From: an uncultured Clostridia bacterium
GTDB taxonomy: Bacteria > Bacillota > Clostridia > Christensenellales > UBA1242
Direction of reading: 5' to 3'
Length of the DNA stretch: 32,983 nucleotides
Assembly (NCBI GenBank): GCA_947591785.1
Contig: CANQDK010000012.1
Span: forward strand, 1 to 32,983
Part shown: positions 18,629 through 30,156 of the stretch, piece after piece
How the letters are laid out: every line of letters begins with the position of its first letter
How positions within the stretch are numbered: the first letter of the stretch is position 1
Notes under the pieces: model-generated
Database searches by the model: none
Told to the model about the DNA's origin: nothing
The model's input: the letters and a program-made list of their open reading frames with translations, nothing else
Translations under genes and position numbers: made by a program

Positions 18629-19981
18629 TCACAAACAAATCAATAAGCCTTTGCTTTGCATTTTCAAGTGAATAATCAAGGTCTTTGAACGATTTGAGAT
18701 AGGATAAAACATTTCTTCTTCCTTTAAAGGTTTGATTGTCAGCAGTTGTCTGTTGGCAATTTTTTCTTGCAATTCTTTGTTTGCAAATTCCAATTCTTTC
18801 ATTCTTGCATTTGTTGTGTCGTTAAAAATGCCATTTTCAACTGCTTTTAGTAAATTTTCAAGTTTTTTATTGTTTTCTTGGAGTTGTTTTTGCAAACTTT
18901 CCAAAATGCTATCTTTTTCTATTTCTTTGTTGTAAACTTCTGTCACAACTTTTGAAATTGCAGCCAAATCTGTGTGTTGCATAAATTCTTGCGTTGCCTT
19001 GACAACACATTCTTCAATATAATCTTTTGCGATGGATTTCTTGTTGCAATGTTCTTTATTTCTTTTCTTTGTAAAACATTTGTAGTAGTGATAAATTGTT
19101 CCTTGTTTGCCTTTGCCACTATCTCCGGTCATTAAACCACCACATTTGCCACAAAACAACCTGCCGCTTAAAAGATAGTTGACTTCGGTCTTGTGATGTG
19201 CAGAGGTGCGTTTTGCCACTTTTAATCTTGAATTCACTTCGTTAAAAATTTCTTCGCTGACGATTGCTGGAAAAATATTCGTGTAAATTGTATTGTCGGC
19301 ATTTACACAACCTTTATAATTTTCATTTCTCAAAATTCTTGAAACGGAATTTATTGTCCAATCTTTGCCATAGTTGTTTTTAATTCCTTTATCTTGCAAC
19401 AACAAAACAACATCTTTAATTCTCTTGCCAGAAAGATATTCGTTGAACATAAGGCGGACAATGTTTGCCTGTTCTTCATTTGTTGTCAATTTGTGGTCAT
19501 TGACATTGTAGCCATAAGGAGTCCATCCGCCCGTGAATTTGCCTTTAATTCGGCTTTCTTTCAGCCCGCGCTTAACTTTTTGCGAAAGTTCGGCAGAATA
19601 ATATTCCGCAAAACTTTCAAGCATTCCTTCCAAAATTATGCCTTCGGGAGTGTCCGAGATTTGTTCGGTTGCAGAAATAACCTTAACGCCATTCTTTTTC
19701 AAAATTGCCTTGTTGACAGCACTGTCATGTCTTGAACGCGAAAATCTGTCAAACTTATACACAAGCACAAATTCAAAACCTTTCTTTTTGCTGCCCAAAA
19801 GCATTTGCTGAAAAGCAGGTCGATTGTCATTCGTTCCCGTCATGGCACGATCAATATATTCGTTGACAATAGCAAAATCGTTTTTCTCTGCATATTCTTT
19901 GCAAACTCTAACTTGCCCTTCAATACTTTGCTCTGTCTGATTGTCACTTGAATATCTTGCATAAATCACTGCGTTTTTCAT
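18629..19981 (-). CDS. Large serine recombinase, C-terminus frameshifted
   Basis: 450 residues from ATG 19981 (GGTGGAA upstream). It is an integrase/transposase that cuts DNA with a serine. Seen: resolvase domain (1-145) with YARYSSDNQTEQS (catalytic Ser11), DRAMTGTNDNRPAFQ and YKFDRFSRS; recombinase domain with GGWTPYGYNV; a zinc ribbon CGKCG ... C ... C (about 283-315); then a coiled coil. The last 27 residues are out of frame: from about 18715 the next frame continues the normal family ending (VLSYLKSFKDLDYSLENAK, QRLIDLFVNRVILYDDHCEI) and runs to a stop at 18414, inside the tRNA-Ser on the opposite strand. One base was probably lost near 18715. Confidence 0.85.
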   Translation of the reverse strand: MKNAVIYARYSSDNQTEQSIEGQVRVCKEYAEKNDFAIVNEYIDRAMTGTNDNRPAFQQMLLGSKKKGFEFVLVYKFDRFSRSRHDSAVNKAILKKNGVKVISATEQISDTPEGIILEGMLESFAEYYSAELSQKVKRGLKESRIKGKFTGGWTPYGYNVNDHKLTTNEEQANIVRLMFNEYLSGKRIKDVVLLLQDKGIKNNYGKDWTINSVSRILRNENYKGCVNADNTIYTNIFPAIVSEEIFNEVNSRLKVAKRTSAHHKTEVNYLLSGRLFCGKCGGLMTGDSGKGKQGTIYHYYKCFTKKRNKEHCNKKSIAKDYIEECVVKATQEFMQHTDLAAISKVVTEVYNKEIEKDSILESLQKQLQENNKKLENLLKAVENGIFNDTTNARMKELEFANKELQEKIANRQLLTIKPLKEEEMFYPISNRSKTLIIHLKMQSKGLLICL

Positions 19982-20001
19982 TTTCCACCGCCTTTTGCCT
20001 A

Positions 20002-20030
20002 ATAATAGCACATTTCAACTCAAAAGTCAG
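20002..20030 (-). promoter_or_regulatory. Promoter of the serine recombinase
   Basis: On the minus strand CTGACT (20025-20030), 17 bases, TATTAT (20002-20007), 20 bases before the start codon. Confidence 0.5.
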
Positions 20031-20091
20031 CGGGTTTGGAGAAAAACAGCAAAACTTTTCAAAAATTTTAGCCAATGTGAGTAAAAGTGTC

Positions 20092-20119
20092 GTGACTTTT
20101 GCTAAAAATGTTGTATAAT
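20092..20119 (+). promoter_or_regulatory. Promoter of the seven-gene operon
   Basis: GTGACT (20092-20097), 16 bases, TATAAT (20114-20119), 22 bases before the ATG at 20142. It is back to back with the recombinase promoter. ATTGTCGAAA, close to a 0A box, overlaps the leader at 20123-20132, perhaps by chance. Confidence 0.6.
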
Positions 20120-20141
20120 GAGATTGTCGAAAGGAGAAAAT

Positions 20142-20960
20142 ATGAAACTTGACGAATTTTATAATGTTAAAGTTGAAAATACCAAAGATTTGAAAACTGC
20201 AAAAGCGACTTGGATTTTGGATGGCAAGACATATCCAACACAAATAAAATCTTTAGCAGAAAAGTTTTCAAAAGCAAATAAAGAGTTTGTAAAAGAGCCT
20301 TGTCAAAAAATTGAAATTGAAAGCAACCTTGTTTTTGAGATTAAAAAGGATGGTTACAATTTTTTCGTTGCGATAAATGGAGAAAAAATGACGGATAGTT
20401 ACAATATTGAATACATCAAAATCAATTTAGATAGGTTGGCAGAACATTTTTCAATTTATTCAAAACTAGTAGAAAATGATGTATGCTACATTGTTGGGAA
20501 GTATATGTGTGGCAACAAAATTGCTTTTAAAACGCTCAATGACACAAATTTCATAACATATATAGACTTTTACTTAGAACGTTGGGATAATTGGGATGAA
20601 CTTGAAATTATAAAAATGTTAAAAAATTATCTTGAATGCAAAGATAAGAATCAGATATTTGAATATATAATAGCAGGCGAACCCGGACTTGCAGTTTTTG
20701 ATAACTATATCTATATTCAAAATGACAAATTCTATCTAACATATCAAAAAGCTCCATTGTCGCCAGTTGAAGATATGAGAGATTGGGACGAACAATATAA
20801 CAATGAATTTAATAAAGTCAAAGAAAGTGAAGTGGATGCAAGAACTCTTGCAAAAGAAATATTTAAAGTGTTTAATGAGAATAAAGAACAAATTTTAAAA
20901 CATATTCCAAAAGAAAATAAAGAAGAGTTTTTAAATCTTTTGGACAAATATGCTGCTTAA
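20142..20960 (+). CDS. Hypothetical protein, first gene of the small-protein operon
   Basis: 272 residues, not recognised. ATG 20142 has AAAGGAG 7 bases upstream. The protein is acidic and aromatic-rich, with no signal peptide or membrane segment, so it should be cytosolic. The N-terminal part (KTAKATWILDGKTYPTQIKS) reads like a small beta domain; residues 130-230 carry many W, Y and D (FYLERWDNWDELEI, DMRDWDEQYN), and the C-terminus is helical with Lys/Glu pairs. It leads an operon of seven genes with 10-15 base gaps, which suggests a shared job, perhaps immunity or regulation. I assign no function. Confidence 0.75.
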   Translation: MKLDEFYNVKVENTKDLKTAKATWILDGKTYPTQIKSLAEKFSKANKEFVKEPCQKIEIESNLVFEIKKDGYNFFVAINGEKMTDSYNIEYIKINLDRLAEHFSIYSKLVENDVCYIVGKYMCGNKIAFKTLNDTNFITYIDFYLERWDNWDELEIIKMLKNYLECKDKNQIFEYIIAGEPGLAVFDNYIYIQNDKFYLTYQKAPLSPVEDMRDWDEQYNNEFNKVKESEVDARTLAKEIFKVFNENKEQILKHIPKENKEEFLNLLDKYAA

Positions 20961-20972
20961 TAGGAGGCACAA

Positions 20973-21458
20973 ATGAAGTTTTCGGAAAAACTAAAAAAGT
21001 TGCGTGCAGCAAACAATATGACGCAAGATGACCTTGCAGATAAAATTTTTGTTACGCGAACAGCAATTTCAAAATGGGAAACTGACAACGGTTATCCAAG
21101 CATTGAAAGTTTGAAGTTGCTTGCAAAACTTTTTGGCACAAGCGTTGACGAACTTATCAGTGAAGAAGACATTGAGCAAAAAGAGAAGCTTGACAAAAAT
21201 AAAAACAAAACATATTTCATTGTCTCGCTTGCATGTTTTGCCATTGCACTTGTTTTCAGTTTAGCAGGAGCATTTACAGAATATAAATTTCTTTTTGCTT
21301 TCGCAGTCGCGGCAGCATCTTGTTTTGTGTTCTTTGCCGAACTTTCAATTCCAAAAGAAAAGCGCCAAACAAAAATAAGCAATTTGCGCTTTATTCTTGA
21401 AGCAATAATTCTTGGGCTTGTAGTTTGGGGCTTTATTGAAATGTGTTTAGGAATTTAA
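20973..21458 (+). CDS. Membrane-anchored Xre-family regulator
   Basis: 161 residues. Residues 1-60 are a Cro/CI-type helix-turn-helix: LKKLRAANNMTQDDLADKIF then VTRTAISKWETDNGYPSIES. Residues 75-95, 97-118 and 138-158 are hydrophobic (FIVSLACFAIALVFSLAGAF; FLFAFAVAAASCFVFFAEL; ILEAIILGLVVWGFIEMCL), so the DNA-binding domain is tethered to the membrane. Such proteins are common in Firmicutes and may sense a membrane signal. AGGAG precedes the ATG, 12 bases after the previous stop. It is likely the regulator of this operon. Confidence 0.85.
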   Translation: MKFSEKLKKLRAANNMTQDDLADKIFVTRTAISKWETDNGYPSIESLKLLAKLFGTSVDELISEEDIEQKEKLDKNKNKTYFIVSLACFAIALVFSLAGAFTEYKFLFAFAVAAASCFVFFAELSIPKEKRQTKISNLRFILEAIILGLVVWGFIEMCLGI

Positions 21459-21470
21459 AAGGAGAGGAAA

Positions 21471-21806
21471 ATGATTATTGGCGAAATAAAAAAGGAAATC
21501 AAATATCACAATATAGAAATTGACCTTAAAGGGATTGAAGGCAAAAACGATTTGCTTTATAGAGTGTCAAAAGAATTGCATTTTCCAAGTGTTGTTTGGA
21601 ATTGGGATGCCTTCAATGATTGGATGTGTTTTTTGTATGAGCCTTATGATAAATTTGATGCAGTTAAAATCACATTCAAAAACTGCGCCGGTTTAGAAGA
21701 AGAAGTGAAAAAAACATTTTTTGAACTTTTGGGATATAGTGCAAACACAGGTTTTTCGACAGATGGTCCAGAAATGGTGCCATGTTATTATGAAGTTTTG
21801 GATTAA
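21471..21806 (+). CDS. Barstar-like protein
   Basis: 111 residues. The central VVWNWDAFNDWMCFLYEP resembles the barstar family pattern (GxNWDAxxDxL), preceded by a beta strand and a helix (NDLLYRVSKELHFP) as in barstar. Barstar-type proteins bind and block an RNase; many are immunity proteins without a neighbouring toxin. AAAGGAGAG precedes the ATG. It lies 12 bases after the Xre gene and 10 before the CPCC gene. No RNase toxin gene is next to it. Confidence 0.6.
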   Translation: MIIGEIKKEIKYHNIEIDLKGIEGKNDLLYRVSKELHFPSVVWNWDAFNDWMCFLYEPYDKFDAVKITFKNCAGLEEEVKKTFFELLGYSANTGFSTDGPEMVPCYYEVLD

Positions 21807-21816
21807 GGAGAGAAAA

Positions 21817-22461
21817 ATGGAAAAATATATTTGCCCAATTTGTGGATATGATGGGCTTGAAGAAAAGCCAGATTGCTCATATGAAATTTGTCCATGTTGT
21901 GGTTATGAGTTCGGGAGCAACGAATATTTTGACAAAAGCAATTGTCCTGTTGATGTTGGATATGAATTCGATTATAAAGAAAACGAAGAATTTTATGCTT
22001 ATGTTCGTTCGTTATGGCTTAAAAATGGCGCAAAATGGTGGGCAAAAGATGAACGAAAGCCTAAAAATTGGGATTTAATCAAGCAATTAAACAATATCCA
22101 AAACTATGTTTTTGAGAAGAACAGAAAACATGGCGAATTTTTGGAATTTCAATTTTGTGAAAAAGAAAATTCGGGGAAAATAAATTTAAAAAGTATTAAG
22201 CATTGGCAAGAAAGTTCTTTGTATGTTTATTCTGAAAATCCACTTTTTAAAAAATATCTTGCTTTGTTGCAAAACGCATTGCTTTCAAATGGTGAAATTG
22301 GGTTTGACGAAAGTGGAACAAACTATTACACCCACGAAAAGACGATTGAACTTTACAACAAAATTCAAAAAGACGAAAACTTGCCTGACAAAAAAGTTTT
22401 GCTCGAATGGTTAGATGATGTTATCAAAACAGGTCATGGCTTTTATATTTTGGGAATTTAA
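21817..22461 (+). CDS. Cysteine-rich CPCC-type protein
   Basis: 214 residues from ATG 21817 (AAGGAGAG upstream); an earlier in-frame ATG lies inside the barstar-like gene and is not conserved-looking. The N-terminus has YICPICGYDGL (4-14) and YEICPCCGYEFG (22-33), two CPxC pairs fit to bind zinc, as in the small CPCC domain family. The rest is an unassigned C-terminal region (about 70-214) with WWAKDERKPKNW and a helical end. The function of CPCC domains is not established; they are often seen among immunity-type genes. Confidence 0.65.
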   Translation: MEKYICPICGYDGLEEKPDCSYEICPCCGYEFGSNEYFDKSNCPVDVGYEFDYKENEEFYAYVRSLWLKNGAKWWAKDERKPKNWDLIKQLNNIQNYVFEKNRKHGEFLEFQFCEKENSGKINLKSIKHWQESSLYVYSENPLFKKYLALLQNALLSNGEIGFDESGTNYYTHEKTIELYNKIQKDENLPDKKVLLEWLDDVIKTGHGFYILGI

Positions 22462-22472
22462 AAGGAGAGAAA

Positions 22473-22943
22473 ATGGAAAAAATAGCACAAAAAGTTTTAG
22501 AAAATGAAATATACAATTATTTCAAAACTAATATTCCCGAACTTGAAAAACAAATTGGCGAACCTGTCGATGAATATGAAGATTTTGATTACTCAGAAGG
22601 TGGACTTGGGCAAGATGCCGATTTTGTTGAAATGTATTTGTTGTTAGAAGGAATTGCTTATAACGGACTTGAACCTGTTTTTAAAAATATTTTTAAAACG
22701 AAAAACACAAAAAGATTAGCAGAAATCTTTAAAGTGATTGAAAATTTTAAAACTAAATATGGAGAATATGATGAAAGATATTCTCAATCCTTGTGGAGTA
22801 TGTTTGCCAATGATTTTTTTACTATTTGTAGAGATTTAGATAAAAATATATTTGATTACATTTGGCCAATATTCAGCGAAGATTTGAAAGACGAATATAC
22901 TTTATGGAAAACTGATTACGAAAAATGGCAAGAAAGAAATTAA
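22473..22943 (+). CDS. Acidic hypothetical protein
   Basis: 156 residues, acidic, helical, no signal peptide. Features: DEYEDFDYSEGGLGQDADFV (33-52), then LLLEGIAYNGLEPVFKNIF and a Trp-rich end (YTLWKTDYEKWQER). I do not recognise a family. AAAGGAGAG precedes the ATG, 11 bases after the CPCC gene. The gene-to-gene leader (TTTAAAAGGAGAGAAAATG) is nearly the same as for its neighbours. Confidence 0.7.
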   Translation: MEKIAQKVLENEIYNYFKTNIPELEKQIGEPVDEYEDFDYSEGGLGQDADFVEMYLLLEGIAYNGLEPVFKNIFKTKNTKRLAEIFKVIENFKTKYGEYDERYSQSLWSMFANDFFTICRDLDKNIFDYIWPIFSEDLKDEYTLWKTDYEKWQERN

Positions 22944-22957
22944 AAAGGAGAGAGAAA

Positions 22958-23320
22958 ATGGGATACAATCTTAAAAATTTGACAGAAGAATTGAAAGTAA
23001 AAGGGCTTGCGGATGATGGGCTTGTGGCTTGGGGACAAAACTCAGGCGGAGCGCTCTTTGGTGCTGTTGGTGCGGGACTTGCTGGAATGCACACAATTTC
23101 TTGCAAAGGCGACAAAATTGTCATCATTCCTTTTTCTAACAAAGAAATCAAATATAGCGAAGGTATCATGATTGACAAAAGCAAAATTAAAAGTGCAAAA
23201 ATCTCAGGTCTTTTGACTGCAAAATTAAAAATTGAGACCACAGATGGAAGATCTCGTGCTTATTCAATTACACAAGGCAAGGATGCAGTAAAACAAATCT
23301 TATCGAGATTGGGGATTTAA
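22958..23320 (+). CDS. Small beta-rich hypothetical protein
   Basis: 120 residues from ATG 22958, which has AAGGAGAG upstream; the longer frame begins inside the previous gene. A Gly/Ala-rich segment (WGQNSGGALFGAVGAGLAGM, 26-45) is followed by alternating strands (KIVIIPFSNKEIKYSEG; SGLLTAKLKIETTDGRSRAY) and a final helix (KDAVKQILSRLG). The pattern recalls small bacterial PH-like domains, but this is inference. It lies 14 bases after the previous gene. Confidence 0.65.
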   Translation: MGYNLKNLTEELKVKGLADDGLVAWGQNSGGALFGAVGAGLAGMHTISCKGDKIVIIPFSNKEIKYSEGIMIDKSKIKSAKISGLLTAKLKIETTDGRSRAYSITQGKDAVKQILSRLGI

Positions 23321-23322
23321 AA

Positions 23323-23748
23323 ATGTTAAAAATAGTTGGCCAAGGTTGGGCGGAAATAAAAATTGGAAATAAAGTGATTTGTAAGGCAAGCGATGTGACG
23401 CAAGTTCCATTGGATTTTTTAAAAGCGCTCTATGATTATTTAAATGAAGAAGATGTAAAAGAAAAACGATTTTCTTCAAGCGTGTATGTGGATTTGGAGG
23501 GCAACGCCCTGAGTTTTGTCTTTTCAAATTGGGACGATGACAAAGCTCATGTTTTTATGATTTATTCAGCGCCAACAGAAAGCGATTTTGCTGTTAGGAC
23601 TTTTGATGTCGAGCCGCTTGCCCTCGCACAAGAACTTGTTGAAGATATAGAAAAAGATTTTAAGAATTGGACTGAATGGTGCGATGAAGAAGTCCTTGCT
23701 TACTGGCTAGACAAGTTAAAAGCAGTTTTGAAAGCCATTGAGCAATAG
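23323..23748 (+). CDS. Acidic hypothetical protein, last gene of the operon
   Basis: 141 residues, cytosolic, acidic (VDLEGNALSFVFSNWDDDKA near 56-75) with an amphipathic, Trp-containing C-terminal helix region (DFKNWTEWCDEEVLAYWLDK). No family recognised. The ATG is 2 bases after the previous stop and has no strong ribosome site, so it depends on coupling. No terminator is seen right after it; a hairpin-dense stretch begins 36 bases later. Confidence 0.65.
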   Translation: MLKIVGQGWAEIKIGNKVICKASDVTQVPLDFLKALYDYLNEEDVKEKRFSSSVYVDLEGNALSFVFSNWDDDKAHVFMIYSAPTESDFAVRTFDVEPLALAQELVEDIEKDFKNWTEWCDEEVLAYWLDKLKAVLKAIEQ

Positions 23749-23783
23749 AATTTGAAATTAAAAATAGTAAGCAGGATAAGGAG

Positions 23784-24222
23784 TAGCCTCAAAATTTCGC
23801 AGACAGACCTAAAATAAAGGTCTGTAGCCGACTCAGGCCCAAAGGCTATGATTCAATTTTGATGCACTCCCCAAATGCTGACCAAGTGGGATACCCACTT
23901 CTCGTCAAAGCACAACCTTTGTGCTCAAAATTTTGCTCGCAAAATTTGTTTCGCCTTTATGGTTGGCTTTTCCTTTGCCCCAAAAATGACAAGCATTTTC
24001 GGGGAACCCCATGCAAAAATGTAGCAAAAATTCACATTGTATGTTATAATAAAAATGTCAATTTCTGGCCATAGAATTGACAGGATTGAAATCGATAAGC
24101 TGTTGACTTCTCATATCTAAAAAATGAGAAATGAACAAACTTGTCGAAATCACAAGTTTTGTTGATTGTGAAGATATAGCTGAGAACACGCAACTTTTGA
24201 CTTTAATACTAAAGTATTAAAG
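23784..24222. other. Hairpin-dense stretch, possible structured RNA
   Basis: Within 440 bases there are at least nine short perfect or near-perfect inverted repeats: 23784-23789/23843-23848 enclosing 23803-23810/23818-23825; 23884-23890/23894-23900 (AAGTGGG/CCCACTT); 23909-23915/23919-23925; 23928-23936/23939-23947; 23978-23988/23994-24004 (one mismatch); 24056-24063/24075-24082; 24108-24114/24124-24130; 24137-24144/24152-24159; 24201-24209/24214-24222. I see no convincing protein gene in 23749-24130. It could be a structured RNA, a decayed element, or several protein-binding palindromes. Confidence 0.45.
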
Positions 24223-24375
24223 CAAGGCAAAGCAAATTTACCCAAAGAGCAAATAAACAGGATTGGCCTAATCATAGCAACCGATCTCAAAAATTTTGCC
24301 GAGTCCGGTGGCAATCTTTCAACTCTATCCGCAAATGCAGTTTACACCCATTTGCAATCCACTCAACAAAACTGA
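24131..24375 (+). pseudogene. Broken small gene
   Basis: The frame from ATG 24131 gives MNKLVEITSFVDCEDIAENT and stops at about 24218-24220. The next frame, from about 24195, reads VLKQGKANLPKEQINRIG then LIIATDLKNFAESGGNLSTL to a stop at 24373-24375. Joined, the two would make about 80 residues of protein-like sequence, so one base was probably lost in CAACTTTTGAC (24191-24201). A strong terminator follows. No family recognised. The break is beside a perfect hairpin (24201-24222), so recoding cannot be excluded. Confidence 0.4.
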
Positions 24376-24380
24376 AAAAG

Positions 24381-24410
24381 GAAGAAGTTGCAAAAACTTC
24401 TTCTTTTTTT
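24381..24410 (+). terminator. Terminator after the broken small gene
   Basis: GAAGAAGTT (24381-24389), loop GCAAA, AACTTCTTC (24395-24403), then seven T. It shows that the stretch before it is, or was, transcribed rightward. Confidence 0.85.
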
Positions 24411-24499
24411 GACAAATCGCAAATATGTGTCACCAGAACTTGATTTTAGAAAATTTCTAGTAAATAATATATTTGCTTTTAAAATAAAATTATTTATGT

Positions 24500-24505
24500 T
24501 ATAAT
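24500..24505 (+). promoter_or_regulatory. Extended -10 of the ATPase-TOPRIM pair
   Basis: TATAAT preceded by TGT. It overlaps the upstream in-frame ATG at 24504, which argues that the real start of the ATPase is the ATG at 24531. Confidence 0.5.
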
Positions 24506-24530
24506 GGAGGACGTAGTGAGGAATATTAAA

Positions 24531-25790
24531 ATGAAACTAGAAAAACTAACACTAAAAAACTTCAAATCAATAAAAAATGCAGAGATCAGTTTAACTAACA
24601 AATCAATAATTATTGGAGCAAATGCATCAGGCAAATCAAATCTTATCTCCGCTTTAAAATTTATAAACTATATTCTTTTGTATGGAATAGACGATGCAGT
24701 GTCCCTACTGGGAGGATTTGATAATTTAATAAACTTAAATTCTTTAAAGAATGAAACTATTGATATAAACTTTTCTTTTTTATTAGAAAATGATAATTGG
24801 TATAGAAGTTTTAATAAATCCTATATAATAAGGCCATCAAAATTAGGATATAACTTGAGCTTAGGGAGAAAAGGAAATAACCAGTTTAAGGTTATTTCAG
24901 ATGAAATGATTATAACTTTCGCCCTCGGTGAAAGCAAAAATAAGAAAAAGTTTTTAAAAGATAATGATACTCAGCTTGGAGCCTTTACTATTAAGTTTGC
25001 TAAAAATGGAAGAACTGTAAAGTCTGATATTATTGAAAATAATACACCTCTAACAGACAGGGAGATAGAAAATGAAAGATCAATTAATTTCTACAAAATA
25101 ATTATCAAAGAAGATAAAAAAGAACTCATTTTAAATAGCATTAGATACTTCTTGCCTCCTATATATATTAATAATAATGAATTGTTTAAAATTTACGATT
25201 TCGATCCTAAGCTACTTAAAACACCAAGTCAAATTACCTCTAAACATAATTTGGAAGAAGATGGGGCAAATATAGGTGTTGTTCTTGAAAGATTACTGAG
25301 AGATAAAACTAATAAAAAAACTTTGCTCAACCTGCTAACTACGAGCTTACCAAACATCAATCGAATTGAAATAAAAAAGAATATTGATAAGTCTGTCGCA
25401 TATCAAATGATAGAAAAATTTTCCAATAAACCACTTTACTCTCAATTTTTATCTGATGGAACTGTTTCCATGCTTGCCTTGGTAATAGCGCTATATTTTA
25501 ATGAGGATGAAAATATTATAATATTGGAGGAGCCAGAAAGAAATCTTCATCCTCAAGTAATCAGAAAATTAGTCGAAATGATTAATGAGGTGTCAAGAGA
25601 CAAACAAATCATAATAACAACTCACAACTCAGAAATAATAAAAAATTCGAGCTTAGATGAATTGATTTGTATGAGAAGAAATAATAACGGAGAATCTCAA
25701 ATTTATAGGCCTCAAGATAAACCCATGATACTATCCTTTTTAAAAAACGATTTAGGTTTAGATGATTTATTTCTTGATGGTATATTATAG
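24531..25790 (+). CDS. OLD/ABC-type AAA ATPase, probable defence protein
   Basis: 419 residues from ATG 24531, chosen because GAGGAAT lies 8 bases upstream and an extended -10 covers the earlier ATG. The N-terminus LEKLTLKNFKSIKNAEI and the Walker A GANASGKSNLISAL (about 29-42) are typical of SMC/RecF-like ATPases of the AAA_15/AAA_21 type. Near the C-terminus are a signature-like FLSDGTVSMLALV, Walker B IIILEEPERNLHP and the His switch IIITTHNSEII. A TOPRIM-like gene follows after 14 bases. Split ATPase plus TOPRIM pairs (OLD family, PARIS-like) act against phage; by analogy this pair probably does too. It lies beside phage genes. Confidence 0.85.
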   Translation: MKLEKLTLKNFKSIKNAEISLTNKSIIIGANASGKSNLISALKFINYILLYGIDDAVSLLGGFDNLINLNSLKNETIDINFSFLLENDNWYRSFNKSYIIRPSKLGYNLSLGRKGNNQFKVISDEMIITFALGESKNKKKFLKDNDTQLGAFTIKFAKNGRTVKSDIIENNTPLTDREIENERSINFYKIIIKEDKKELILNSIRYFLPPIYINNNELFKIYDFDPKLLKTPSQITSKHNLEEDGANIGVVLERLLRDKTNKKTLLNLLTTSLPNINRIEIKKNIDKSVAYQMIEKFSNKPLYSQFLSDGTVSMLALVIALYFNEDENIIILEEPERNLHPQVIRKLVEMINEVSRDKQIIITTHNSEIIKNSSLDELICMRRNNNGESQIYRPQDKPMILSFLKNDLGLDDLFLDGIL

Positions 25791-25804
25791 TTGGAGAAAT
25801 ACTG

Positions 25805-26305
25805 ATGATATATTTTTTCGTAGAAGGTACATTTGATAAAATCTTTATTTCGAAATTAATCAATTGTGATTGTCAAATAGTTGAATATAGTTCAATGAAG
25901 AATAAGAAGTTGAACAATTATATCCGCAGTTTGAAAAAACAAGGGGTGGATTATGTTTTTCTTTTTGACACTGATAGAAAGGATAAAGATACAAAATTAA
26001 AACAGAAGTTAAAACAATATAATCAATTGCAAAAAGAAAAATGTTTTGCCGTTGTACTAGAAATTGAAAGTTGGTTTATGGCAGGTTGCTGTGACGATAT
26101 TTTAAAGAAATATAAAATTAAGCCGTTTAATGATACGAATAATTATGACAAAGAGCACATGATGAATGATTTTAAAACAAATAAACTAATTAGTTTTTAT
26201 CAGGAAATACTAGAGAGGTTCTCAATTGAAAATGCAGTTTTAAGAAATAAAAGTTTTAATGAATTTTATAGCAAGTACAAATCAATTTTTAAGCAATGTG
26301 GATAA
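25805..26305 (+). CDS. TOPRIM-like (DUF4276-like) partner of the ATPase
   Basis: 166 residues. The N-terminal YFFVEGTFDKIFISKL carries the TOPRIM Glu (VEG), and YVFLFDTDRKDKD (about 54-66) the DxD pair; AVVLEIESWFMAG (about 81-93) matches the ExW part seen in DUF4276-type proteins. The set fits a metal-dependent nuclease or primase fold. GGAG precedes the ATG, and the gene is 14 bases after the ATPase, so they form one operon. In PARIS the second protein is a DUF4435 TOPRIM; here the sequence looks closer to DUF4276, though I cannot test it. A terminator follows at 26371. Confidence 0.65.
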   Translation: MIYFFVEGTFDKIFISKLINCDCQIVEYSSMKNKKLNNYIRSLKKQGVDYVFLFDTDRKDKDTKLKQKLKQYNQLQKEKCFAVVLEIESWFMAGCCDDILKKYKIKPFNDTNNYDKEHMMNDFKTNKLISFYQEILERFSIENAVLRNKSFNEFYSKYKSIFKQCG

Positions 26306-26340
26306 TTTTATCCAACCAACACCAACGGTTATGGTATTAA

Positions 26341-26365
26341 GATTGGATAGCGGTCGCTCCGTCAA
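26341..26365 (+). repeat. Dispersed repeat, copy 1
   Basis: GATTGGATAGCGGTCGCTCC continued by GTCAA; 24 of 25 bases equal those at 30219-30243. AGC-GGTC-GCT inside forms a small hairpin. It follows the TOPRIM gene. Confidence 0.75.
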
Positions 26366-26370
26366 ATTTG

Positions 26371-26398
26371 ACAGATCTCGAAAGAAATCTGTTTTTTC
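26371..26398 (+). terminator. Terminator after the ATPase-TOPRIM pair
   Basis: ACAGAT (26371-26376) pairs with ATCTGT (26387-26392), with inner TC/GA pairs and loop GAAA, followed by a T run. Confidence 0.65.
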
Positions 26399-26479
26399 GT
26401 TTATTTCAAAAATCTGTCACTTAATCTTGCAATCATTAAAATCCTATGATAAATTTGTAAAAAATAATAGGAGTTTAAG

Positions 26480-26908
26480 ATGTTAGAAAGTGATGAAGTT
26501 ATTAAGCGAATGCAGGAAGATGCGAAGAAAAGGCAATTGGAAACGCAAGAGATAAATAGCAGAATTTTAACTATTCCAGAAAATCTTGCTGAGGATGAAA
26601 AAATTGCTTATGCGGAAATTGTTCAAACATTGAAAGAAAGCATAACTTACAGGCTTTCAGCGACCGACACAGAACTTATTTGGCAATACTGCCAAATCAA
26701 GGTTATGAGAGACAGAGCATGGCGAGAATATAATAAAAATCCGGACCGATATATTCGCATTGTGACAGGGATTTGTAGTGATGGCAAAACTCCAAAGGTT
26801 ATGGTGAAAGAAAATGAACACTACAAGACGCTCATTGATTGCAATAAACAACTTGAAAAAATTTTAAAGGATTTGCGTTTAACACCAGAAGCAAGGAGAA
26901 AGAAATAA
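26480..26908 (+). CDS. Phage terminase small subunit, P27 family-like
   Basis: 142 residues, basic. The small terminase subunit recognises phage DNA for packaging. Evidence: a central helical part (YAEIVQTLKESITYRLSATD), then YIRIVTGICSDGKTPKVMVK and a C-terminal LKDLRLTPEARRKK that matches the LGLTPxxR ending of P27-type subunits. AGGAG is 8 bases before the ATG. The gene overlaps the next by one base. The large subunit, portal and capsid genes are not here, so this is a fragment of a prophage or a satellite. Confidence 0.7.
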   Translation: MLESDEVIKRMQEDAKKRQLETQEINSRILTIPENLAEDEKIAYAEIVQTLKESITYRLSATDTELIWQYCQIKVMRDRAWREYNKNPDRYIRIVTGICSDGKTPKVMVKENEHYKTLIDCNKQLEKILKDLRLTPEARRKK

Positions 26909-27450
26909 TGGAAGATTTGAAAATTGAATATATTGATATAAACAAATTAACACACTATGAAAACAACTCGAAAATTCATACAAAGCAGCAGATAGAGCAT
27001 ATCGCAAACTCAATTCGAGAATTTGGCTTTAATGATCCTCTTGGAATTGCTGGCAAAGAGAATGTTGTGCTTGAAGGGAATGGACGCGTGGAGGCTGCAA
27101 AACTTGTTGGATTGACCAAACTTCCTTGTGTGCGCCTTGATCACATGACAAAGGAAGAACAACAGGCTTATGTAATCGCACACAACTCGCTTAATCTTGA
27201 AACTTCTTTCGATGATGGAATTTTATTCCAAGAATTAAAAAAATTGCAAGATTTTGATTTTACAGATTTTGGAATTGATGTTGATAAATATTTAAAAACT
27301 TGCATTCGCGTTCAAAAGCGAATTTTGAAGCCAAATAAAAAAGTTCATTATTTGATTAGTCTTGACATAAACAAAAATGATGAAATAGCAAATTTAATTG
27401 CCAGAATGCAAAGGATAGAAGGGGTGGAAATTGAGTCGACAATCAACTAA
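26908..27450 (+). CDS. Phage-type ParB-like nuclease-domain protein
   Basis: 180 residues. The ParB/sulfiredoxin-like domain is clear at 5-100: INKLTHYENNSKIHTKQQIE, IANSIREFGFNDPLGIA, EGNGRVEAAKLVGLTKLPC and AYVIAHNSLNLE. Phage proteins of this kind usually continue into a DNA methyltransferase; this one stops after about 120 residues of similarity and ends in an unassigned tail. EGNGR replaces the usual xGHxR. AGGAG lies upstream. It overlaps the terminase gene by 1 base and the next gene by 20. Confidence 0.8.
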   Translation: MEDLKIEYIDINKLTHYENNSKIHTKQQIEHIANSIREFGFNDPLGIAGKENVVLEGNGRVEAAKLVGLTKLPCVRLDHMTKEEQQAYVIAHNSLNLETSFDDGILFQELKKLQDFDFTDFGIDVDKYLKTCIRVQKRILKPNKKVHYLISLDINKNDEIANLIARMQRIEGVEIESTIN

Positions 27451-27979
27451 AACAGATAACAAATCTATTGCAAACAAAATTTTTATTCGCAAAGAGGCAA
27501 TTAAAGATTTGAAAGAAGTGAAAGTGTTAGATTTGTTTGCTGGAAGAAATGTTCTTTGGAGCAACATTCACACTGACAAATATTTTGGGATAGATATTGA
27601 GGAACATAAAGGCCAAAATTTAAATGCGGACACAAGAGAAGTTTTTGATACATTAGATTTGTCGGCATTTAACGTGATTGATTGCGACAGTTATGGAATA
27701 GCTTTTGATTTATATAAAAAACTTTTAACGCGAAAAGATTTGAAAAAAGGCACAATTATTCTTTATACAGCAATTACTAATGAATTTACAAAAATTCAAA
27801 ACGTTGCTAAAAAAGAGTTTAATTTTAGACATTTTTATGAAAAAGCTCCATCTCTTTTCAATGCAAGAGCTATTGAGTTCTTCTATGAATTTTTGGCGCT
27901 AAATGGGATTGATGAAGTGTTTTATTATGCTATTCGTGACCATTTTGATAAACATTATGGATATTTTATTGTCAAATAA
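27431..27979 (+). CDS. Methyltransferase-like protein
   Basis: 182 residues from a TTG start at 27431, supported by AGGGGTGG just upstream. VKVLDLFAGRNVLWSNI (about 31-47) is a Rossmann-type SAM-binding motif (DxFxGxG-like), followed by YFGIDIEEHKG with the acidic residue expected after strand 2, and VIDCDSYGIAFDLY in place of the catalytic motif. No DPPY or PC motif is seen, so base methylation is not certain. It overlaps the ParB-like gene by 20 bases, as the methylase part often follows ParB in phages. Confidence 0.6.
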   Translation: MSRQSTKTDNKSIANKIFIRKEAIKDLKEVKVLDLFAGRNVLWSNIHTDKYFGIDIEEHKGQNLNADTREVFDTLDLSAFNVIDCDSYGIAFDLYKKLLTRKDLKKGTIILYTAITNEFTKIQNVAKKEFNFRHFYEKAPSLFNARAIEFFYEFLALNGIDEVFYYAIRDHFDKHYGYFIVK

Positions 27980-27980
27980 T

Positions 27981-28017
27981 TTCACATTTTTTGCATTTAT
28001 GCTATAATTTTTGCATG
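27981..28017 (+). promoter_or_regulatory. Promoter giving an apparently leaderless mRNA for the SplB-like gene
   Basis: TTCACA (27981-27986), 16 bases, TATAAT (28003-28008) preceded by TGC. The ATG at 28015 is 6 bases after the -10 box and has no Shine-Dalgarno site. Confidence 0.6.
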
Positions 28018-28851
28018 AGCGTGATTTATAAGCCTTGTGGCATGGCGAGGGAGTATAGCCCATTTGCGCTGAATATCTATATCGGGTGCAGCCATAGATG
28101 TAGATATTGTTATGCGCCTCACACCTTGCAAAAGTCAAGCGCGACATATTTTGGCAAGCCAGAACCACGAAAAGATATTTTGAAGTATTTAGAAAAAGAC
28201 CTGCAAAAAAATGTTTACAAAGAGCAGGTGCTTTTGTCTTTTGTTGGGGATGTTTATTGTGACAACGCGGACGACAGCGCCACAACGCGCGAAGTGTTGA
28301 AGATGCTGAGCGCTTATCATGTGCCGGTGGCAGTGCTGTCTAAAGGCGGAAAGAAAATGCTTCGAGATTTGGACATTTTCAAAACTTTTGGCGATCGCAT
28401 AACTGTCGGAACAACCCTGACATTTTTGGACGAAGAAAAAAGCAAATATTGGGAGCCATTCGCCGCGCTTCCACGCGAAAGACTTGAAACATTGAAAATT
28501 TTGCACGACAACGGCATTAAAACTTTTGCAAGTTTTGAGCCGACCATCGAGCCTGAGGAAAGCTTGGCACTTATTCGAAAAACTTTGGAACTCGATTGCG
28601 TGGACCACTACAAAATTGGGAAAATCAACAACTACAAAAGTGAGGACAAGTGGCAGGATTGGGCAAAATATCTGCAAGATTGTGTTGATTTGCTGCGCCC
28701 GACCGGAAAACAAGTGTATTATAAGTTTTGCCTGCGAAAACTTGCGCCAAATGTTGAACTTTTGCCGGAAGAGAAAAATCCAGATGAATACATAGTGAGA
28801 GTTACTGATGAGCAAGTCCAAACAAGTTTATTTGATGGCGGTGAGTTATGA
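28015..28851 (+). CDS. SplB-like radical SAM protein
   Basis: 278 residues. FALNIYIGCSHRCRYCYAPH (17-36) holds the CxxxCxxC motif (Cys25, 29, 32) that binds the [4Fe-4S] cluster of radical SAM enzymes; the context is that of the spore photoproduct lyase-like group (COG1533). SFVGDVYCDN (about 75-84), VLSKGGKKML (about 107-116), TFASFEPTIEP and YKIGKINNY are also typical. The reaction is unknown. The start at 28015 follows an extended -10 by 6 bases. It overlaps the DUF1848 gene by 4 bases. These genes have more G and C than their neighbours, a sign of transfer. Confidence 0.85.
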   Translation: MSVIYKPCGMAREYSPFALNIYIGCSHRCRYCYAPHTLQKSSATYFGKPEPRKDILKYLEKDLQKNVYKEQVLLSFVGDVYCDNADDSATTREVLKMLSAYHVPVAVLSKGGKKMLRDLDIFKTFGDRITVGTTLTFLDEEKSKYWEPFAALPRERLETLKILHDNGIKTFASFEPTIEPEESLALIRKTLELDCVDHYKIGKINNYKSEDKWQDWAKYLQDCVDLLRPTGKQVYYKFCLRKLAPNVELLPEEKNPDEYIVRVTDEQVQTSLFDGGEL

Positions 28852-29786
28852 TTTTAAGCGTTTCGAGGCGGACGGATGTGCCGGCGTTTTATGGCGATTG
28901 GTTCTTTGACAGGTTGAGGGAGGGGTTTGTGCTTGTGCCAAACCCTATCAATCAGCAAAAAATTGCGCGAGTTGAATTGAAGCCAATCAAAATCGAAAGC
29001 ATTGAAGAAGATATGCTTGGCAACAAAAAAGTTAAGATGAGCGGAAATTTGGAGGGGATTGTTTTCTGGACCAAAAATCCGCGACCGATGATGAGCCGAC
29101 TTGGAGAACTTGGGGATATTAAATATTATTTTCTTTACACTCTCAATCCTTATCCGGCGAAGATTGAAGCCAATTTGCCAAGTTTGGAAGAGCATATTGA
29201 GAGTTTTAAGGAACTTTCGAAATTTTGCCCTGTGATTTGGCGCTATGACCCGATTTTGCTGGCGGACGGGATTGATGTTGACTGGCATATTGAGTATTTC
29301 GCCAAGTTGTGCGAGAGTTTAAAAAGCTACACAAAGCACTGCAAAATCAGTTTTGTGATTGAGAGTTATTCAGGCTGTTCCAAAAGCGTTTGGGCGCCAA
29401 ATCTCATGCAAAAGCACCAAATTTTGTCCGAGTTTTCAAAAATTGCAAAGCAAAACGGCATTCAAATTGAGGCGTGTGCCGAAAGTGGCGATCGGAGCGC
29501 CTATGACATTGTGCCAAGCAAGTGTATTGATGGCGAGATTTTTGAGAAACTTCTCACCGAAAAATTTTCTGCACAAAATTTGACCGTGAAACGCAAAAAT
29601 AACAAACTTGACGGACAGCGAAAATTTTGTGGCTGTATGCCATCTGTGGATATCGGCCGCTACGACACCTGCCGACATGGTTGCAATTATTGTTATGCAC
29701 GCAAAGGTCAGCCAAAAAGCATGCTTGACAAGCTCTCCGGCGAAATCTATGACCGCAAAACCGAACTTGAATTTGAGTATGAATAA
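28848..29786 (+). CDS. DUF1848 protein with a C-terminal radical-SAM-like cysteine motif
   Basis: 312 residues. DUF1848 signatures: ILSVSRRTDVPAFYGDWF (2-19), GIVFWTKNPRPM, VIWRYDPILL and KFCGCMPSVDIG. The end reads DTCRHGCNYCYARKG with Cys275, 279 and 282 in the same CxxxCxxCYA arrangement as the N-terminal motif of the neighbour at 28015. A cluster loop at the C-terminus suggests a circularly permuted radical SAM-type barrel (inference). Function unknown. It overlaps the SplB-like gene by 4 bases, so the two are coupled, and a DUF488 gene follows. Confidence 0.85.
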   Translation: MILSVSRRTDVPAFYGDWFFDRLREGFVLVPNPINQQKIARVELKPIKIESIEEDMLGNKKVKMSGNLEGIVFWTKNPRPMMSRLGELGDIKYYFLYTLNPYPAKIEANLPSLEEHIESFKELSKFCPVIWRYDPILLADGIDVDWHIEYFAKLCESLKSYTKHCKISFVIESYSGCSKSVWAPNLMQKHQILSEFSKIAKQNGIQIEACAESGDRSAYDIVPSKCIDGEIFEKLLTEKFSAQNLTVKRKNNKLDGQRKFCGCMPSVDIGRYDTCRHGCNYCYARKGQPKSMLDKLSGEIYDRKTELEFEYE

Positions 29787-29805
29787 GATTTGATGGAGAT
29801 TTGAA

Positions 29806-30156
29806 ATGAAAACAGGATATTTTGGGAAAGTGAGAAGTTATCCGAAAGACAAAGAATATCGCTTTGTCTCCATTGCGCGATTTGCAAAGTTTTGGGATGG
29901 AGATACATATTCTAAACTAGCACCGCCGGCAGAGATAATTAAAATTAAAGACGAAAAATTGTATGAAAAAATTTATTTTGAAAAGGTGCTGTCAAAGTTA
30001 AATCCGCAGCAAGTTTTTGACGAACTTGGCGATAACGCAGTTTTACTTTGTTATGAAAAATATGCCGACATTGAAAATGGCACAACTTTTTGTCATCGCA
30101 GAATGGTTGCAAAGTGGTTGGAAGACAATTTGGGCGTGAAGGTGGACGAGTTATAA
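29806..30156 (+). CDS. DUF488 family protein
   Basis: 116 residues. YFGKVRSYPKDKEYRFVSIA (4-23), then FWDGDTYSKLAPP, VLLCYEK (about 79-85) and FCHRRMVAKWLE (about 94-105) match the DUF488 type with the CYEK...CHR pair, in which the Cys and CHR form a likely active site. The function is not established. GGAG is 9 bases before the ATG, 20 bases after the DUF1848 stop, so it is the third gene of that operon. No terminator is evident after it. Confidence 0.8.
   Translation: MKTGYFGKVRSYPKDKEYRFVSIARFAKFWDGDTYSKLAPPAEIIKIKDEKLYEKIYFEKVLSKLNPQQVFDELGDNAVLLCYEKYADIENGTTFCHRRMVAKWLEDNLGVKVDEL

Follow-up and report, generated by a model that had tools for sequence, protein, structure and literature searches.

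Three adjacent genes on contig CANQDK010000012.1 of an uncultured Clostridia bacterium raise two questions: do they form a dedicated pathway, and what does the middle one encode? The window analysed here, that is, the whole stretch of 32,983 nucleotides (nt), carries them in the order spore photoproduct lyase (SPL)-type radical S-adenosylmethionine (SAM) protein, DUF1848 protein and DUF488-like protein. We find that DUF1848 is likely, rather than proven, to be a circularly permuted radical SAM barrel, predicted from models and profile alignments, and that the trio is probably not a functional unit. A DUF1848 member is in itself ordinary; what would be new here is the predicted permuted fold, together with possible links to the sliding clamp, to DNA repair genes and to a recurrent partner.

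Predicted fold of the DUF1848 protein

The DUF1848 gene and the elements that bear on its fold are as follows.

28848..29786, + strand: DUF1848 protein, 312 amino acids (aa), predicted circularly permuted radical SAM barrel (PF08902, AlphaFold2 model, VIA structural neighbours, hhalign)
28857..28877, + strand: N-terminal SVSRRTD, residues 4-10, end of the strand corresponding to radical SAM strand 2 (alignment, model)
29475..29636, + strand: invariant C210, C226, C261 and C263, possible auxiliary Fe-S or metal site (104/104 aligned)
29670..29699, + strand: C-terminal CRHGCNYCYA, residues 275-284, with the CX3CX2C triad (invariant cysteines, SPL profile alignment)

The window protein is a plain member of its family (PF08902, 286.7 bits against a Pfam cut-off of 30.5). 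It is distinguished by the lack of a QxxLF tail and by a 19-residue insertion at residues 49-67, found in its clade by comparison with L005-L007 (loci are numbered L and same-genus genomes G; the flanks of the 112 DUF1848 loci collected reach at most 6 kb and are often ended by contig ends). The initial annotation had noticed that the SPL-type and DUF1848 proteins share a cysteine motif (GCSHRCRYCYA at residues 24-34 and TCRHGCNYCYA at residues 274-284); both motifs and the three open reading frames (ORFs) are where it placed them. The resemblance goes beyond chance, the triad C275, C279 and C282 being invariant in 104/104 aligned DUF1848 proteins. In the same alignment C210, C226, C261 and C263 are also invariant, and may from their conservation form an auxiliary Fe-S or metal site, a second cluster. 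S4 and D10 of SVSRRTD are invariant too. Pfam's own description of DUF1848 mentions C-terminal cysteines like those of Radical_SAM.

The cysteine unit, which ordinarily comes first in radical SAM proteins, comes last in DUF1848 (275-282 of 312). The proposal that this reflects a circular permutation gains support from a modelled barrel, from its structural neighbours and from profile alignments that depend on the permutation. The AlphaFold2 model (predicted local distance difference test score, pLDDT, 93.9) has its first strand at residues 2-5. Its top 28 structural neighbours (VIA), about ten distinct enzymes, are all radical SAM proteins, with moderate Z scores of 9.8-7.9; in all 28 rows residue 1 falls on strand 2 of the neighbour's barrel. 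Where entry titles are silent, we take Elp3, TigE and Mmp10 to be radical SAM enzymes, and the cluster-cysteine positions in PFL-AE, SPL and the other matched structures are likewise those that we assume. Against viral predicted structures, the model gave weak matches, three of them at E <=0.001. DUF1848 has the CX3CX2C motif and, in the model, the barrel fold of radical SAM proteins, in a non-canonical order and with a PF04055 match (residues 272-291, E 0.093, 13.3 bits) under the cut-off of 29.5. Such a sub-threshold score is what a split match would give.

Profile comparisons point in the same direction. The unpermuted DUF1848 profile has two matches to a 17-sequence SPL profile, in the wrong order: 268-286 with SPL 18-36 (E 7.5e-8) and 70-206 with SPL 104-248 (E 1.8e-4). 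The strand at residues 2-5, with SVSRRTD, is aligned by hhalign with SPL VLLSFVGD. Once the profile is permuted, a single joined alignment runs through 268-312 and then 1-206, and the score rises from 60.3 to 81.4 for the tested cuts at 216-264. Cuts at 120-204 bring a partial gain (68.2-79.4), and from 286 onward the gain is gone. Column shuffles reach at most 71.3 in 100 trials. As controls, reversal of the non-cysteine part gives 63.5 over 72 columns, and the unrelated profile of the upstream partner described below scores 17-22 against DUF1848 at six cuts.

Some of these comparisons are less clear-cut. Shuffles in 20-column blocks reach 75 or more in 5/100 trials, with a maximum of 82.8 that overlaps the real score of 81.4, and neither a 5-sequence near-clade profile nor the distant set with its first anchor shows a permutation gain. 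Because this first subset test failed, we ran all anchors and then a larger SPL set. With all anchors, permuted alignments of at least 135 columns are obtained for 9/17 in the full set and 9/12 in the distant set, and never for the unpermuted profile. The largest SPL profile, to which 30 SPL-like proteins trimmed around the motif were added (47 anchors), extends over at least 100 columns from 47/47 anchors when permuted and from 0/47 when unpermuted, the smaller profiles being less consistent. Its real score of 84.4 exceeds the column-shuffle maximum of 76.3 and lies below the block-shuffle maximum of 85.7 (60 trials each).

Compared with SPL and SPL-like proteins (PF04055; PA0069, Rv2578c, mob_pairB), DUF1848 would thus have the same barrel strand order once permuted, and it has the same CX3CX2C followed by YA; QxxLF tails occur in part of both groups. 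It differs in its C-terminal cysteine unit and in its four further invariant cysteines. In the arrangement that we propose, the chain would start at strand 2 and finish with strand 1 and the CX3CX2C loop, the [4Fe-4S] cluster still sitting at the barrel mouth, where DUF1848 would cleave SAM to a 5'-deoxyadenosyl radical. A natural permutation of the radical SAM core would, if true, show that the SAM and cluster site survives moving its cysteine loop.

DUF1848 scores above its cut-off in 88/299 sampled genomes of the phylum and in 0/14 well-known control genomes, an absence that may be why it escaped study. We found at least 580 relatives and kept the best 80. The window's own genome holds a second, remnant DUF1848 C-terminal piece (L021:7212-7517; G000:C2, ~125226-125408). 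In a literature search by name, DUF1848 was not met in any paper of the collection searched; judging by search results alone, we found none on a circularly permuted radical SAM core of this sort or a permuted spore photoproduct lyase, on radical SAM proteins with DUF488, or on the clamp, repair and partner links described below.

Clamp-like tails, an upstream partner and a possible DNA link

Many DUF1848 proteins end in a short motif resembling those that bind the bacterial sliding clamp. One source gives QL[S/D]LF, more generally QxxLF, as the bacterial clamp-binding motif, C-terminal in PolC, and QLSLPL as a tight-binding peptide (PMC12309361). Defining a tail as Q..[LMIF][FL] within the last 25 residues, we found it in 32/89 unfused DUF1848 proteins with a tail of at least 20 residues, where shuffles average 2.1 and internal windows give 3/914. 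A second sample from the 30 best-scoring loci, which may overlap the first, gives 9/30 (shuffle mean 0.54). Tailed DUF1848 proteins may therefore bind the clamp DnaN, as far as their sequence tells. The SPL-type protein of the window carries a similar motif:

28819..28833, + strand: SPL C-terminal QTSLF, residues 269-273, sliding-clamp-binding-like motif (sequence; consensus from PMC12309361)

Here QTSLF is followed by five residues, and in the full orthologues (L136-L139) QTSLF or QSSLF is followed by one. Among distant SPL-like proteins 2/12 have such a tail; a wider sample shows a weak excess (6/30; shuffle mean 1.0, maximum 5). Four more SPL-like proteins end in Q[IL]ALPL, which resembles the QLSLPL peptide reported in PMC12309361.

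A methyltransferase-fold protein resembling METTL17/Rsm22 is encoded directly upstream of DUF1848 in 28/103 loci; DUF1848 is tailed in 11/27 loci with this partner and in 21/69 without it. The likeness comes from a structure match; neither Pfam (nine partner members scanned) nor NCBIfam gave the scanned members a match above cut-off. We take chain 7 of the matched human mitoribosome entries to be METTL17; the title of 8om2 names METTL17/Rsm22. Unlike METTL17/Rsm22, the partner has most of its conserved cysteines before the Rossmann domain and no family sequence match above cut-off. One partner protein (L107:4569-5996) has an N-terminal RnlA-toxin-like match (26.0 against a cut-off of 27).

Several loci place DUF1848 beside DNA repair genes, seen by eye and confirmed by Pfam. 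In L103, from a viral collection, Ada, AlkA and Ogt precede DUF1848; in L072 a DNA alkylation repair family gene overlaps it; in L024 UDG follows it; and in L049 MutS lies two genes off on the other strand. A MetK-like gene, far under its cut-off, follows DUF1848 in L115. On the other hand, the general picture tempers this link: the Pfam families of 148 adjoining genes are diverse, none occurring in more than four (25/136 families listed), and the window's own DUF1848 has neither partner nor QxxLF tail. It ends in TELEFEYE, its clade carrying TELEFEY in place of the tail, and the SPL gene of a phage-type block occupies the place of the partner.

Macro-domain genes were also seen near DUF1848, in L017:4064-5699 (Pfam) and, by eye, in L041:3832-4350 and L065:6961-7494, with two Macro matches in the Pfam tally. 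A sirtuin-like ORF lies between the macro-domain gene and DUF1848 in L017 (seen by eye, and unmatched in Pfam at E 0.01).

Taken together, DUF1848 would act on DNA, by lesion reversal or modification; its QxxLF tail would bring many members to replicating DNA via the clamp, and it would often work with the partner encoded directly upstream. This combined model, in which a permuted radical SAM enzyme, often clamp-tethered and partnered, acts on DNA and the trio is a chance assembly, has in our judgement an even chance of being right. A bolder version, namely a large natural family with a second Fe-S site, tethered to the clamp and paired with the METTL17-like protein, performing a new radical-based DNA repair or modification mainly in anaerobes, is tentative and somewhat doubtful. 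The clamp-like tails, the repair-gene neighbours and the partner offer concrete and cheap routes to testing function.

Other explanations of DUF1848 account for part of these data. It might be a complete TIM barrel that gained its C-terminal Fe-S motif independently, like the non-canonical radical SAM enzyme ThiC, whose C-terminal cluster motif is CX2CX4C. Both have a TIM-type barrel with a C-terminal cysteine motif, but DUF1848 keeps CX3CX2C then YA, as in SPL; radical SAM enzymes fill the 28 best structural rows, the match starting at strand 2 each time, and the barrel deprived of its cysteine part still scores 35.4 against SPL, above the maxima of 100 column shuffles (24.6) and 100 block shuffles (33.7). 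We consider an independent gain quite unlikely. That DUF1848 and its methyltransferase-like partner instead target RNA or the ribosome, as the METTL17 likeness suggests, has a little more in its favour and is still unlikely: about one in three DUF1848 proteins carries a tail, and the neighbours include Ada-AlkA-Ogt, alkylation-repair and UDG genes. Finally, DUF1848 might be an accessory of phage-defence systems that are associated with reverse transcriptases (DRT). The PADLOC model RTasDUF1848 (DRT) matches the window protein at E 1.6e-39, the PADLOC methyl transferase model C3a159 matches 18/148 neighbours, and the window has a predicted ATPase/TOPRIM-like pair further upstream. No reverse transcriptase is found, however, in a Pfam scan of 17 window proteins or among the neighbour families listed (25/136 Pfam, 25/104 PADLOC), and a defence role appears distinctly improbable. 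A permuted radical SAM enzyme directed at DNA is the reading that we retain.

The trio as a unit

The remaining features of the trio are listed below.

27981..28008, + strand: promoter-like site TTCACA-16-TATAAT with extended -10 (11/12 matches, TG before the second hexamer)
28015..28851 including stop (coding 28015-28848), + strand: SPL-type (PA0069/Rv2578c-like) radical SAM protein, 278 aa (PF04055, phrog_13321)
28087..28116, + strand: SPL radical SAM cysteine motif CSHRCRYCYA, residues 25-34 (sequence)
29806..30156, + strand: DUF488-like protein, 116 aa (sub-threshold Pfam, phrog_2450, PADLOC PDC-M45C)

The initial annotation read these genes as an operon, and its physical description is borne out. 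All three are on one strand; the SPL and DUF1848 genes overlap by ATGA, and the third begins 19 nt after the DUF1848 stop. The G+C content is 0.435 over 28001-29000, the maximum of the profile, with windows outside 28001-30000 at 0.25-0.39. Genes for a terminase small subunit and a ParB-like protein precede the trio. As to the shared promoter, one strong promoter-like site does precede the trio, in a scan that shows no overall excess (8 sites against a shuffle mean of 8.6). With just 6 nt between its extended -10 box and the SPL ATG, the SPL mRNA may be leaderless; a TATA-like box at a distance of 6 or 7 nt from the ATG of orthologues L136-L141 (counted by eye) points the same way.

The co-occurrence of the three families in other genomes, named beforehand as the point on which the unit depends, is not seen. 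Among 112 DUF1848 loci, SPL-type sequence is nearby in two (L024, L090), a DUF488-like gene in one (L023) and all three in none; in L024 the SPL copies are fragments, one at the stretch edge, and the L023 contig ends just before the DUF488-like gene. L090 (1847-4666), on a Desulfobacula contig, holds a single ORF of 940 aa in which an adenine-type DNA methyltransferase comes first, DUF1848 next and then the beginning of an SPL-like radical SAM domain, where the contig stops. In six more loci an ORF longer than 120 aa, within four genes, carries a different CX3CX2C-like motif, and 2/148 genes adjoining DUF1848 match Radical_SAM in Pfam. An SPL profile iterated over the collected ORFs drifted into DUF1848 via the shared motif, and its E-values were not used.

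Same-genus genomes also speak against the unit. The SPL orthologue is full-length in G016, G022, G029 and G032 (82-85% identity), and DUF1848 was not seen after it in any of these four loci, which are short stretches; three of the genomes (G016, G022, G032) have no DUF1848 match at all and G029 a contig-end piece. Conversely, DUF1848 is full-length in G008, G020 and G036, with SPL absent from G020 and G036 and distant (26% identity) in G008. In G007 and G029 both are present as broken or contig-end copies on different contigs, where adjacency cannot be judged. The trio is therefore, as far as visible, particular to this genome.

A dedicated three-enzyme pathway would fit the near-touching genes with their common strand, promoter-like site and high G+C, as well as the SPL fragments in L024, the fusion in L090 and the DUF488-like gene in L023. 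Yet the complete set is missing from all of the 112 DUF1848 loci (contig ends limiting L023 and L024), the same-genus SPL orthologues have no DUF1848 after them, and the recurrent partner of DUF1848 is a different gene, the METTL17/Rsm22-like one. We therefore regard such a pathway as highly improbable and reject the trio as a conserved operon. Its genes probably came together by chance on mobile-type DNA of a single lineage, and the DNA-directed roles of their products are perhaps related.

Family assignments of the outer genes and their surroundings

The SPL-type protein belongs to PF04055 (43.8 bits against 29.5) and matches phrog_13321 (E 4.7e-31). It matches NF033668 at E 1.6e-21, yet stays under the NCBIfam cut-off, as it does for PA0069 (76.7/360 bits), Rv2578c (51.8/430) and mob_pairB (53.8/410). 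The DUF488 label given to the third protein is plausible: its C-terminal LLCYE...CHR segment is one that we take to be typical of DUF488, and it matches phrog_2450 (E 6.5e-21) and PADLOC PDC-M45C (E 2.2e-6). The three members tested all fall under the curated Pfam cut-offs, namely the window protein P0003 (PF22751, E 0.1, 13.4 bits against 27; PF04343, E 0.18, 12.9 against 22.2), the L023 protein (PF22751, 17.7 against 27) and the same-genus homologue L156 (PF22751, E 1.1e-5), just under the cut-off of 27 with 26.2 bits. Viral contigs searched with single SPL and DUF488-like proteins gave no match. Same-genus DUF488-like homologues (L156, L157, L158) lie near apparent gyrase/topoisomerase subunit genes (by eye).

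Directly before the trio, 27431-27979 encodes a protein of 182 aa, whose DLFAG...GID pattern resembles that of class I methyltransferases and which precedes SPL here and in L137-L139; in these three of the four same-genus SPL loci the order is terminase small subunit, ParB-like, 182-aa protein, SPL. No family matched this protein in Pfam at E up to 1 or in NCBIfam at E up to 0.5, and PADLOC mad2 did so weakly (E 3.9e-4). Its match to the partner family is also weak (E 0.0072, probability 5%), and membership is not claimed. Further upstream, 18629-26908 holds a serine recombinase (18629-20011, minus strand), a helix-turn-helix regulator, a Barstar-like protein, an ATPase pair and the terminase small subunit, so that an integrated mobile element may carry the trio. 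In the pair (24504-26305), a 428-aa AAA_21/AAA_15 ATPase precedes a TOPRIM/DUF4276-like protein of 166 aa (PADLOC HEC-01B, E 1.8e-7); judged by sequence, the two are candidates for a phage-defence system, with the phage-type block directly downstream.
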